Assembly: GCF_003713065.1 (NCBI RefSeq)
Contig: NZ_CP033433.1
Span: 3,845,001-3,909,000, forward strand
Source: Cohnella candidum
Lineage (GTDB): Bacteria; Bacillota; Bacilli; Paenibacillales; Paenibacillaceae
Length of the DNA: 64,000 nucleotides
Direction: 5' to 3'
Of this stretch, positions 33,466-61,194 are shown in pieces. The position numbers and the translations under genes were made by a program. The notes beneath the pieces are model-generated. The model was not told the DNA's origin. It saw only the letters and a program-made list of their open reading frames with translations, and did not search any database. Position 1 is the stretch's first letter. The number at the start of each line of letters is the position of its first letter.

Positions 33466-34713
33466 TTAATATTGCAGGCCCGGGTACAGCGGATATTGCG
33501 CCGTCAGGTCGCGAACGAGATCGCGGGCTTGCCGGAGCGTCGCTTCGTCCTTCGGGTTTTTCAGCGTCATGGCGATGACCTTGGCGATCGTCTTCATCGC
33601 TTCGGCGCCCATGGCGCGGGAAGTGACGGCCGGCGTGCCGATCCGGATGCCGCTCGTCACGAACGGGCTCGTCGGGTCGAACGGGATCGCGTTCTTGTTG
33701 ACCGTGATGGCGACGGAGTCGAGGACATGCTCGGCGTCTTTTCCCGTGATGTTCAGGTTGCGGGTGTCGATCAGCATCAGGTGGTTGTCCGTACCGCCGG
33801 ATACCAGGTTCAGGCCTTCCGCCAGCAAGGCTTCGGACAGCACCTTCGCATTGGAGACGATGTTGCGTGCGTAGTCTTTAAACGACGGCTGCAGAGCCTC
33901 GCCGAGGGCGACCGCCTTGGCGGCGATGATGTGCATCAACGGTCCGCCTTGGGAGCCCGGGAATACGGCTTTGTCGATCGCCGCCGCCCACGGCTGGCGG
34001 CACAAGATCAGGCCGCCGCGGGGACCGCGGAGCGTTTTGTGCGTCGTCGTCGTGACGAAGTGCGCGTGCGGAACCGGGCTCGGATGCTCGCCGGCCGCCA
34101 CGAGGCCCGCGATATGCGCCATGTCGACGAACAGGAGAGCGCCGACGTCGTTGGCGATTTGGGCCATTTTTTCGAAATCGATGATGCGCGGGTACGCGCT
34201 CGCGCCGGCGACGATCATGCGCGGGCGATGTTTGAAGGCCGCTTTGCGGACTTCGTCGTAATCGATCGTGAACGTATCTTCGCTGACGCCATAAGCGACG
34301 AAGTTATAGAACAGGCCGGACGCGTTGACCGGGCTGCCGTGCGTGAGGTGGCCGCCGTGCGCCAGGTTCATCCCGAGCACGGTGTCGCCGGTTTTGAGCG
34401 CGGCCAGGTAGACGGCCATGTTCGCTTGCGCGCCGGAGTGGGGCTGCACGTTCGCATGCTCGGCGCCGAACAGCTCTTTCGCGCGGTTGCGCGCGATGTC
34501 CTCGGCGATGTCGACGTATTCGCAGCCGCCGTAGTAACGTTTGCCGGGATAGCCTTCGGCGTATTTATTCGTGAGCACCGTGCCCATCGCTTGCAGGACG
34601 GCGGGGCTGACGATGTTCTCGGAAGCGATCAGCTCGATGTTGTCGCGCTGGCGGCCGAGCTCCAGGTTTAACGCTTTGACGATTTCGGGGTCTTGCTGGC
34701 GCAATTGATCCAT
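33466..34713 (-). CDS. glyA: Serine hydroxymethyltransferase
   Basis: PLP enzyme converting serine + THF to glycine + 5,10-methylene-THF, the main one-carbon source; 415 residues. Signatures are the N-terminal [31 protein letters not shown], and the PLP lysine in [20 protein letters not shown] lies ten bases before the ATG. It is the last gene behind the ZTP riboswitch, and 81 bp from ywlG. Confidence 0.98.
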
Positions 34714-35399: not shown

Positions 35400-35858
35400 T
35401 CAAGGATGCAAAGCCTGTTTGTCTTCGAGCCCCATCACTTTGCGGATCCGGTTCAGATGGCGTTCGCCTTGGGAAAACGGCGTGTCCAGCCAAACTTTGA
35501 CGATCTCCTCGGCAAGGCCCGGACCGACGACTCGTTCGCCCATGGCGAGCACGTTGGTGTCGTTATGCTCGCGGGTCGCTTTGGCGGAGAACAAGTCGTG
35601 CACGAGCGCGCAGCGGATGCCCGGCGTTTTGTTGGCCGCGATCGACATTCCGATCCCCGTGCCGCAAATCAGGATCCCCCGCTCCGCTTCGCCGTTCACG
35701 ACCATGTCGCAAACGGGAATCGCGTAATCCGGATAATCGACGGAATCCGCGCAGTCGCAGCCGACGTCGAGCACTTCGTGGCCCAGCTGCTTCAGCATCG
35801 GAACGATGACGTCTTTCAGACGGTAACCGGCGTGATCGGCACCAATCGCTATTTTCAT
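35400..35858 (-). CDS. rpiB: Ribose-5-phosphate isomerase B
   Basis: Interconverts ribose-5-P and ribulose-5-P; 152 residues. Signatures are IAIGADHAGYRLK, the catalytic Cys region ILICGTGIGMSIAANK and VHDLFSAKATREHNDTNVL. GGGAGGT lies seven bases before the ATG. First gene after the riboswitch, supplying ribose phosphate for purines, which fits with ZTP control. Confidence 0.95.
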   Translation of the reverse strand: MKIAIGADHAGYRLKDVIVPMLKQLGHEVLDVGCDCADSVDYPDYAIPVCDMVVNGEAERGILICGTGIGMSIAANKTPGIRCALVHDLFSAKATREHNDTNVLAMGERVVGPGLAEEIVKVWLDTPFSQGERHLNRIRKVMGLEDKQALHP

Positions 35859-35977: not shown

Positions 35978-36014
35978 AAAAAAGAGCGAGCGCGTCGTCA
36001 AACGCACTGCTCTT
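35978..36014 (-). terminator. Terminator hairpin of the ZTP riboswitch
   Basis: Reverse-strand AAGAGCAGTGCG just after the aptamer pairs with CGCGCTCGCTCTT and ends in T6 (35983-35978). It is the likely expression platform: binding of ZTP would favour read-through. Confidence 0.8.
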
Positions 36015-36090
36015 CGCCCAGGCGACCGGCCGTCATTCCGATGCTCCCCCGTGGTTCCACCCACTTCGCGTCGCCAGTCACATCGGAACG
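36015..36090 (-). ncRNA. ZTP (pfl) riboswitch aptamer
   Basis: The reverse strand shows the conserved parts in order: TGTGACTGGCG, a GTGGGTGGAACCAC hairpin followed by GGGGGAGC, then CATCGG, which pairs with the upstream CCGATG, and finally the 3' CGCCTGGGCG. These match the pfl/ZTP consensus. ZTP riboswitches control purine and one-carbon genes and typically lie ahead of glyA. Here it precedes rpiB-ywlG-glyA. Confidence 0.9.
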
Positions 36091-36094
36091 TTAA

Positions 36095-59011: not shown

Positions 59012-59060
59012 TTGTGCGTTTATGGTGGGCGGAAAGTCCGCTGCAGTGTCGCTGGCATGA

Positions 59061-59265
59061 CGTTAACCGGTTTTTCCGGTTATCTCGCTCATTCGGGGGC
59101 CACTCGCAGTGCCGTTAAACGGTTTTTCCGACTAACTCGCGTTTTTGAAGCCTTCGGAAGCGCCGTTAGCTGGATTTTCCGGCTATCTCGTGCGATTCGG
59201 ACCCGTTCGCAGTGCCGTTAACCGGTTTTTCCGACTAACTCGGGTTACCTAGGACGGTTCCACCG
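59061..59265. repeat. Array B: four degenerate repeat units, 51-52 bp period
   Basis: Units start at 59061, 59113, 59164 and 59216. The core is CGTTA(A/G)(C/A)(C/T)GG(T/A)TTTTCCG(A/G)(C/T)TA(A/T)CTCG (27 bp), followed by about 24 bp of variable sequence that often ends in GCAGTGC or GGAAGCGC. In unit 1 the core forms a perfect hairpin TAACCGG-TTTTT-CCGGTTA. The array starts 50 bp after a terminator and fills the gap to the convergent FAD dehydrogenase gene. Apart from these units the 319-bp gap holds no gene. Confidence 0.8.
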
Positions 59266-59285: not shown

Positions 59286-60722
59286 TCACACCGCTGCTTG
59301 CTCGGCGATGGCGCGGGCGATCCAGACGCCGGCGGCGCCGGCTTGCGCCAAGCCGCGCGTGACGCCGGCTCCGTCGCCGCCGCAGTACAGGCCGGCGATC
59401 TCCGTCTCCAGCGTTTCGCTCAGCTTCGGACGCGCGGAGTAGAACTTCGCTTCCACGCCGTAGAACAGCGTGTGTTCGGACGCGATGCCCGGCGTCACTT
59501 TATCCAGCGCTTCGACCATCTCGATCAGGCTCTTCATCGTGTTGTACGGCAGCACGAGCCCCAGATCTCCCGGCACGGCTTCCTTCAATGTCGGCTCGAT
59601 GAAGCCTTCCTTGATGCGTCCCTCGGTCGAACGCCGCCCGCGCAGGATATCGCCGTACTTCTGCACGATCACCCCGCCGCTCGACAAATCGTTCGCCCGC
59701 TTGCAGATCTCCCGGGCGTATTCGTTCGGCTTGTCGAACGGCTCGGTGAACTTGTGCGAAACGAGCAGCGCGAAGTTCGTGTTTGCCGAGCCCAGCGCGG
59801 GGTCCTTATAAGCGTGCCCGTTCGCCGCCATGACGCCGCTGTGGTTCTCCACGACGACGTGGCCCGACGGGTTGCTGCAGAAAGTCCGAACACGCGTCCC
59901 CACGGACGTATTGAATATGAATTTGCCTTCGTACAGATGCTCGTTGATTTCCCGCATGACGACGTCCGACGTCTCCACGCGAACGCCGACGTCCACTTGG
60001 TTGTTCACCATTTTCAGACGGCGCTTCTTCAGCACCTCGGACAGCCAAGCGGAACCGTCGCGGCCGGGCGCGACGATGACCCGCCCCGCTTCGATCTCCT
60101 CGCCGTTCTTCAGCAGGATCCCCCGAACGCGATGAGTGCCGTCTTCCTTCACGGTCAGCAGATCCGCCACTTCCGTTTTGAAGCGCATGTCGATGCGGCT
60201 GGTCAGGTAATCATAGATCGACTTCAAAATCTCCAGGTTCTGCTCGGTCCCCAAATGGCGGACCTGCGCGCGCAGCAGCTTCAAGCCGGCCGCGTAGCCG
60301 CGGTGCTCGATCTGCCGCACGACGTCGGTCGTCGGATCGGTTACGTGGGGCGTTGCCCCGTGCTCCAAGTTGATCTCGTCCACGTACTTGATCAACGCGA
60401 GCACTTGGGACGGCGGCAAATAATCCGTCAGCCAGCCGCCGAACTCGGTCGTGATGTTGAATTTGCCGTCGCTGTATGCTCCTGCGCCGCCGAAGCCGGC
60501 GGTGATCGAACAAGCCGGCAGGCAGCCGGCGAATTCCTTCTTGCCGGCCGGCGGCGGGCAGAGCTCGATTTTATTTTCCAAGATGGGACAATGCCGGTGA
60601 TGGATGTCGTGACCCTTATCCACGAGCAGCACCTTCATGCCGGGCGCTTTCCTCGTCAGCTCGTAACAAGCGAAAATGCCGGCAGGCCCGCCCCCGACCA
60701 CGATTACGTCATATTGATTCAT
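59286..60722 (-). CDS. FAD-dependent dehydrogenase (COG2509 type)
   Basis: Cytoplasmic flavoprotein of 478 residues. N-terminal FAD site VIVVGGGPAGIFACYELTRK, the cysteine-rich CPPPAGKKEFAGCLPACS followed by ITAGFGGAGAYSDGKFN (signature of the COG2509 group) and a C-terminal CGGDGAGVTRGLAQAGAAGV dinucleotide motif. Substrate unknown. The ATG at 60722 has GGAGG eight bases upstream. It sits behind a purine riboswitch, which suggests a link to purine or flavin metabolism (inference). Confidence 0.9.
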   Translation of the reverse strand: MNQYDVIVVGGGPAGIFACYELTRKAPGMKVLLVDKGHDIHHRHCPILENKIELCPPPAGKKEFAGCLPACSITAGFGGAGAYSDGKFNITTEFGGWLTDYLPPSQVLALIKYVDEINLEHGATPHVTDPTTDVVRQIEHRGYAAGLKLLRAQVRHLGTEQNLEILKSIYDYLTSRIDMRFKTEVADLLTVKEDGTHRVRGILLKNGEEIEAGRVIVAPGRDGSAWLSEVLKKRRLKMVNNQVDVGVRVETSDVVMREINEHLYEGKFIFNTSVGTRVRTFCSNPSGHVVVENHSGVMAANGHAYKDPALGSANTNFALLVSHKFTEPFDKPNEYAREICKRANDLSSGGVIVQKYGDILRGRRSTEGRIKEGFIEPTLKEAVPGDLGLVLPYNTMKSLIEMVEALDKVTPGIASEHTLFYGVEAKFYSARPKLSETLETEIAGLYCGGDGAGVTRGLAQAGAAGVWIARAIAEQAAV

Positions 60723-60766
60723 GTTGTCGCCTCCATCCGAATGTTCCGATTCTGCCAGCGGCAGAC

Positions 60767-60823
60767 AAAAAATTCCCGACTGCCGAAGGGTGTGGGCAAG
60801 CCACATCCTCGTAGTCAGGAATT
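60767..60823 (-). terminator. Terminator of the purine riboswitch
   Basis: Reverse-strand AATTCCTGACT (60823-60813) pairs with AGTCGGGAATT (60781-60771, one G-U pair), then six T (60772-60767). Its 5' arm is the 3' strand of aptamer helix P3 plus J3/1, so terminator and aptamer exclude one another: ligand binding should turn the gene on. Confidence 0.75.
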
Positions 60824-60877
60824 CAACGGTTCCTGGTAGAGACCTCCGGCCCTGTTGCCGGAGATATACGATGGATG
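60804..60877 (-). ncRNA. Purine (guanine-class) riboswitch aptamer
   Basis: Helix P1 pairs CATCC-A-TCGTA with TACGAGGATG (one bulged A). P2 is CTCCGGC/GCCGGAG. J2/3 reads TCTCTACC, P3 is CAGGAA/TTCCTG with CC in the loop, and the specificity element is CTGACTACGAG. The C in GACTA is the guanine-type base. The parts match the purine riboswitch consensus. Confidence 0.88.
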
Positions 60878-60908
60878 AATCCGGTCACGCGATCGCGTTC
60901 CCTTGAGT

Positions 60909-60937
60909 AGGGTAACGCAAATCGACGTACGCGTCAA
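60909..60937 (-). promoter_or_regulatory. Promoter of the purine riboswitch leader
   Basis: Reverse-strand TTGACG (60937-60932), 17-bp spacer, TACCCT (60914-60909). The -10 is weak but the position, 26 bp before the aptamer, is right. Confidence 0.5.
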
Positions 60938-61091
60938 GAACTAAATCTATATATTATTCGGTTTATCGGGCGTTTATCCCAAACTCATTCCTCAACTTGT
61001 CCAAAACAACCGTCTAAATCCGAACATTCACGACATCAGCCACATGAAACCGAATATTCTCTTACACGATTTCCCTTGGCGCCTTCCGCTG

Positions 61092-61100
61092 TGCTACAAT
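61092..61100 (+). promoter_or_regulatory. Extended -10 promoter of the CDF leader
   Basis: TGCTACAAT is an extended -10. The transcript would start near 61107 and run through a leader of about 150 nt before the CDF gene. Confidence 0.6.
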
Positions 61101-61143
61101 GGAAACCAATCAAAATGCCCAACAGAGAGGGCGGTTGTCCGAC

Positions 61144-61194
61144 ATGAACGGCATCGCAATCCTAAACGACGATAAAATGGATACAAGCCTTTGA
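61144..61194 (+). CDS. 16-residue leader peptide of the CDF gene
   Basis: ATG 61144 begins MNGIAILNDDKMDTSL and stops at TGA 61192-61194. GAGAGGGCGG lies about ten bases upstream. The stop codon is inside the left arm of the hairpin at 61183-61215, an arrangement typical of translational attenuators. Whether it is translated is unproven. Confidence 0.45.
   Translation: MNGIAILNDDKMDTSL

Follow-up and report, generated by a model that had tools for sequence, protein, structure and literature searches.

The riboswitch of Bacillus subtilis pbuE, which reads adenine and switches ON the gene of a purine efflux pump, is described in PMC7707468 as a platform whose P1 and P3 give way as the terminator forms; strand exchange begins near the P4 hairpin that lies between, with a role for P4/L4, and is blocked by the ligand. 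Guanine-I riboswitches (xpt, purE, pbuG) are described as OFF in PMC9295807, where U22, U51 and C74 are given as the guanine-contacting residues. The same source describes several variant classes of guanine riboswitch as ON and mentions an 8-oxoguanine class. Guanine-II, xanthine-II and 2'-dG-III are, as set out there, also three-stem junctions of Firmicutes with a predicted ON direction; their joining regions contain insertions or changes, and 2'-dG-III departs from the guanine RNAs in all three of these regions.

Analysis of the window, the whole stretch of 64,000 nucleotides of Cohnella candidum DNA studied here, indicated that the leader of a FAD-dependent oxidoreductase gene is probably a transcriptional ON riboswitch for a guanine-like purine. 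We refer to the gene as COG2509, the label of an earlier sequence-only reading, our own assignment being made from Pfam domains and the similarity to 3nlc. As in pbuE, the terminator competes with P1 and P3, and a P4-like hairpin lies between; unlike pbuE, the aptamer has C at position 74, as guanine RNAs do, and the gene codes for a flavoenzyme and not for an exporter. The pocket letters are identical to those of guanine-I, whereas the predicted direction is the opposite one. Neither the J2-3 and J3-1 insertions of guanine-II and xanthine-II nor the departures of 2'-dG-III are present in the window aptamer, and the guanine letters are kept both there and in 78 aligned leaders. A search of the open-access literature found no purine riboswitch in front of this enzyme and no guanine-pocket ON switch before it, although an earlier mention in a supplementary table or a subscription paper is possible.

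Aptamer and terminator in the window

The search with RF00167 (gathering score 37) gave one match at E <=1 within 60640-61180, which spans the model over its full length, contains the three-stem junction of P1, P2 and P3 and has an E value of 4.2e-6 with the whole window as search space (Table 1). The assignment to the guanine class, which the sequence-only reading had based on the C of GACTA, was upheld, that residue being nucleotide 74. Alignment of the 78 other leaders revealed that 93.7% of the aptamer cells were paired. The GG loop of P2 presumably serves the L2-L3 contact, as in known structures, and the P4-like hairpin is a possible toehold for strand exchange by analogy with pbuE. The candidate promoter was absent from the output of a consensus scan, which gave 60982-60953 instead.

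Table 1. Features of the flavoenzyme gene and its leader (window positions)
Feature	Position	Strand	Basis
FAD-dependent oxidoreductase gene, 478 aa	59286..60722	-	ORF; FAD Rossmann Pfams; PF21688; 3nlc
Ribosome-binding site GGAGG	60730..60734	-	Sequence
Intrinsic terminator GAAUUCCUGACUACG...CGGCAGUCGGGAAUUU	60770..60824	-	Hairpin search, dG -27.6; covariation across 78 other leaders
P4-like hairpin directly after P1	60791..60805	-	Fold of 90-nt transcript
Purine (guanine-class) riboswitch aptamer	60792..60891	-	RF00167, 52.6 bits, positions 1-102 of 102
P1 3' strand UACGAGGAUG, also part of terminator	60804..60813	-	Sequence and fold
C74 of J3/1 (C of GACTA), guanine-specifying residue	60814	-	Sequence; invariant in 78/78 aligned leaders
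P3 hairpin CAGGAA/UUCCUG	60816..60835	-	Sequence, RF00167 match, terminator search, fold
P2 hairpin CUCCGGC/GCCGGAG, loop GG	60844..60863	-	Sequence, RF00167 match, fold
P1 5' strand CAUCC-A-UCGUA, one A bulge	60867..60877	-	Sequence and minimum-energy fold, 78-nt transcript
Candidate promoter TTGACG-17-TACCCT, uncertain	60909..60937	-	Read by eye

The terminator, which ends in a run of six U (60772-60767), has a 5' arm that begins 10 nt before C74 and consists of the P3 3' strand (UUCCUG, 60821-60816), J3/1 and the P1 3' strand, which confirms the overlap through P3 proposed earlier. Since these strands are reused, aptamer and terminator are mutually exclusive, and this is the layout of pbuE, from which switching ON by the ligand is predicted. 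Folding energies, which exclude ligand and tertiary contacts, gave the aptamer as the minimum-energy fold of a 78-nt transcript (-32.0 kcal/mol) and the terminator as that of a 114-nt transcript (-47.1 kcal/mol). In the 124-nt leader the value was -45.3 kcal/mol with the aptamer forced as compared with -47.1 kcal/mol for the free fold, so that the two states are near enough for a ligand to decide. Three purine switches were identified in this genome, and P3 overlap was observed only in the COG2509 leader.

Leaders of related genes and other purine riboswitches of the genus

The closest named relatives of the flavoenzyme gene belong to Cohnella, among 401 listed relatives that may omit records very near the window. 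Matches to the enzyme at E 1e-20 or better were present in 31 of 37 genomes of the genus, one of which (G032) carries only a 30%-identical paralogue, which leaves an orthologue in 30; at E 1e-100 the enzyme was present in 162 of the 296 genomes sampled in the order and in 139 of the 398 sampled in the class. With a covariance model derived from 31 leaders, an aptamer was located upstream of the enzyme gene and in its orientation in all 80 named loci (the best 80 of the 401 relatives); 20 of the 31 model sequences had been taken from these loci and match by construction. Rfam alone revealed the aptamer in all 20 non-Cohnella loci submitted, out of 63 such loci. A strict letter pattern, found in 18 of the 80 named loci, had indicated an aptamer nearly confined to Cohnella, and was overturned by both searches. 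In families outside the order the aptamer was found in 11 of 60 loci, which appear to include relatives of Brevibacillus, Ammoniphilus, Caldalkalibacillus and Tumebacillus, and none was detected before the orthologue in the other 49, so purine control of the enzyme is not a general requirement. The purine aptamer in front of the COG2509 gene is thus real, and its occurrence is wider than had been claimed.

Hairpins of -12 kcal/mol or better that precede a U-run and include the P3 3' strand were found in 88 of 91 leaders (the 80 named and the 11 from outside the order), with a 5' arm beginning 6 to 17 nt before C74 and a median energy of -28.3 kcal/mol. For the 84 of these 88 leaders that were of sufficient length, the sequence after the first 20 bases was shuffled; a hairpin of -17.4 kcal/mol was reached in 82 of the 84 real leaders as compared with 4 of 420 shuffled controls, which indicates that the P3 overlap exceeds chance. 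The alignment of 78 leaders comprises the 80 named loci minus L075 and L124, with the window's own leader outside it. In the alignment 78.5% of the terminator cells were paired (68% in the inner helix) and the covariation score was 0.246 as compared with 0.162 after shuffling, none of 500 shuffles being as high, in leaders from related species whose kinship can inflate covariation. Nucleotide 73 of J3/1, which the aptamer leaves without a partner, was found to covary with column 119 of the terminator (GC 28, AU 27, GU 8, UA 1, UG 1, other 13). Terminator pairs changed on both sides numbered eight, which is not above the shuffles (54 of 500 as high).

The three exceptions, L313, L314 and L315, come from one family outside the order (Tumebacillus-type) and retain the aptamer before the same enzyme. 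The minimum-energy fold of L314 contains a long-range terminator into which the P3 5' strand is drawn, and this leader, judging from its layout, would likewise be ON; the search for a terminator in L313 and L315 found none.

Analysis of the 37 genomes of the genus with RF00167 gave 132 matches, of which all but G027:C33 were placed. The genes downstream of these 131 aptamers were pbuG-like permease (33), purE/purK (36), COG2509 (30), EamA transporter (19), xpt (7), PRT (2), 8-oxoguanine deaminase (2), Rieske (1) and IMPDH/guaC-like (1), the groups being labelled by eye with representatives of six groups checked and two single G007 leaders assigned by hand to purE and COG2509. These counts overlap in part with the named Cohnella loci and are not additive with them. 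A search for single hairpins showed a P3-including terminator in 29 of 30 COG2509 leaders, 18 of 19 EamA leaders (G029 was mis-anchored) and both 8-oxoguanine deaminase leaders. The remaining COG2509 leader, G030, was scored as having none, yet its terminator arms are visible by eye; for G033 the row given is a spurious early hairpin, and the proper hairpin is also in the list. Unlike the COG2509 leaders, those of purE/K showed P3 overlap in 0 of 36, the terminator being clear of the aptamer in 35 and none being found in one. The pbuG-like leaders showed P3 overlap in 0 of 33 (26 clear, 5 touching P1, 2 with none), the Rieske leader has one terminator clear of the aptamer, and this search found none in the 7 xpt, 2 PRT and 1 guaC-like leaders.

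EamA-type transporter genes preceded by a purine aptamer (37 to 59.7 bits) were observed at L198, L207, L208 and 16 further loci, the assignment coming from PF00892 in one representative; from their layout these leaders would be a second ON-type purine switch, possibly for purine export. The 8-oxoguanine riboswitch is an ON switch of Paenibacillaceae, and the ON-layout aptamers of L185 and L197, before an 8-oxoguanine deaminase-like gene, agree with this class; the best NCBIfam match of the gene is 8-oxoguanine deaminase, over a 150-residue piece and under the whole-protein cut-off. The deaminase leaders of the genus have a P3-including terminator like that of the window, but differ in J2/3 and in the gene.

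Direction of the switch and identity of the ligand

The ON direction, proposed in the sequence-only reading, is well supported as a prediction by the anatomy of the leader, in which the terminator overlaps P3, is kept across many genera and has covarying pairs. We infer a ligand-gated strand exchange like that of pbuE. While RNA polymerase synthesizes the leader, the guanine-type aptamer would fold before the terminator, and binding of guanine, hypoxanthine or xanthine would lock P1, the junction and P3; the locked P3 3' strand would be unavailable to the terminator and the mRNA of the flavoenzyme would be completed. When no ligand is bound, the strand after P4 would invade P1, then J3/1 and then P3, upon which the terminator would form and transcription would stop. 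The opposite direction would call for a further, unrecognized antiterminator that lets the ligand favour termination. Guanine riboswitches commonly lower expression when guanine is plentiful, according to PMC9295807, and an OFF layout of the classical kind is recognizable by eye in the three xpt leaders of the genus that were inspected; nevertheless, an OFF switch is very improbable here, as the arm of the terminator is the P3/J3-1/P1 3' strand of the aptamer itself in 88 of 91 leaders, so that the two structures cannot coexist, and no second terminator was found in the window's own leader.

When the positions of U22, U51 and C74 were transferred from the naming of PMC9295807 onto the leader alignment, the three residues were found in the window aptamer and were invariant in all 78 leaders, and J2/3 was invariant in all 78 up to nucleotide 53, nucleotide 48 excepted. 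Guanine is therefore the likely ligand, with hypoxanthine or xanthine as alternatives. One extra J2/3 base was present in 3 of the 78 leaders and is absent from the window. The junction letters TATAT / GTCTCTACC / GACTA occurred within the genus in 24 of the 30 COG2509 leaders and in 22 of the 36 leaders of purE/K; U24 and C48 were considered as a new pocket signature and discarded, the purE leaders having the same.

That the aptamer senses another purine (2'-deoxyguanosine, 8-oxoguanine or xanthine only), and that the enzyme handles that compound, appears unlikely. The account of PMC9295807 counts an ON logic and an unexpected associated gene among the pointers to 2'-dG-III and xanthine-II, and of the 62 non-Cohnella leaders 58 have A at nucleotide 54, opposite G72, and 46 have G at nucleotide 73; both nucleotides are, however, variable in the pbuG-like permease leaders too. 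A permease encoded upstream of the aptamer in five Cohnella loci scored best against the xanthine permease subfamily, below the cut-off. Against these points stand the invariant U22, U51, C74 and J2/3 core, a J2/3 and J3/1 in the window that are free of the guanine-II/xanthine-II insertion, and the different J2/3, GCUCUACU, of the 8-oxoguanine-deaminase leaders of the genus. The alternative of 2'-deoxyguanosine, raised in the sequence-only reading, was not sustained, since nearly all junction letters are invariant along with the three contacting residues, unlike in 2'-dG-III.

The flavoenzyme and its possible role

The flavoenzyme scored over the cut-offs of Pyr_redox_2, FAD_binding_2 and PF21688 (35.1 bits, cut-off 27) and so combines the Rossmann and FAD-depend_C domains, and it matched 3nlc with an E value of 3.4e-24. 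The structure nearest to its structure model is also 3nlc, an uncharacterised target; HI0933-, Thi4- and GidA-like fold matches of the model were set aside as functional clues, no function being shown by them, and no NCBIfam model scored over its own cut-off. The ATG at 60722 is the plausible start of the gene, and a longer ORF to 60806 was rejected because its start would fall within the leader hairpins. Four cysteines near the FAD domain, C45, C55, C67 and C71, were invariant in all 42 aligned proteins and may form a metal or redox site (residues 45-71). VP0956 (3nlc), an uncharacterised flavoprotein, differs from the window enzyme by a longer N-terminus and by a weakly aligned segment opposite the four cysteines that is free of cysteine.

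An ON platform like that of pbuE, combined with a guanine-pocket aptamer and retained in front of one enzyme in many genera, suggests that the enzyme is most likely wanted when purine bases are abundant, and makes this uncharacterised protein directly testable. The leaders are also a natural collection of guanine-type ON switches that can be set beside the OFF-type switches found in the same genomes.

Whether the enzyme itself acts on purines is a separate matter, and the chance that it does not, purine abundance being only a signal of conditions such as rich medium or nucleic-acid breakdown, is close to even. Xanthine dehydrogenase (XDH) showed no association with the enzyme in the 296 genomes, of which 93 have both, 69 the enzyme alone, 78 XDH alone and 56 neither (p 0.91, kinship uncorrected), and a role in oxidative purine breakdown, considered on the ground of such co-occurrence, was discarded. 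No neighbour gene was kept throughout, the largest shared cluster being found in 13 of 80 loci (28 largest clusters) or 6 of 20 (18 largest), and the gene has no detected aptamer in 49 of the 60 loci outside the order; all three results agree with purines as a mere signal. On the other hand, the known ON purine switches described in PMC7707468 and PMC9295807 govern purine export, salvage or breakdown, and five of the 17 Cohnella loci (L075, L077, L078, L083 and L115) carry an NCS2-type nucleobase permease gene immediately before the aptamer; this gene is on the same strand, some 370-1900 bases ahead of the enzyme gene, and ends 370-503 nt upstream of the latter. No aptamer of the permease gene's own was found in these five loci. 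The permease is only a hint of a purine substrate, for which we lowered the chance of a pure signal slightly, from even, and raised somewhat that of a purine-handling enzyme. In the latter case, which we regard as doubtful, the riboswitch group would mark a so far undescribed flavoenzyme with a conserved four-cysteine site that carries out redox chemistry on guanine, hypoxanthine or xanthine, or on a compound that arises when these are in excess, and is induced by its own substrate. If so, it would be a substrate-induced enzyme across Paenibacillales, Brevibacillus and neighbours, and would provide a first point of entry to a protein family found well beyond them.

Several minor observations were made around the enzyme gene and elsewhere in the window. 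In three of 20 loci (L343, L344 and L356) a periplasmic-binding lipoprotein-like gene was observed at a distance of no more than about 5 kb from the enzyme gene, BMP-like in L343 and L344, a weak assignment with the name read from the sequence. Short repeated GTTAACCGGTTTTTCCG-like units occupy window positions 59020-59250, in the intergenic stretch downstream of the flavoenzyme gene. A ZMP/ZTP riboswitch (36009-36091, minus strand, 54.9 bits) lies upstream of an RpiB-like gene (35400-35858, minus strand) and a GlyA-like gene (33466-34713, minus strand), both names being read from the sequence.
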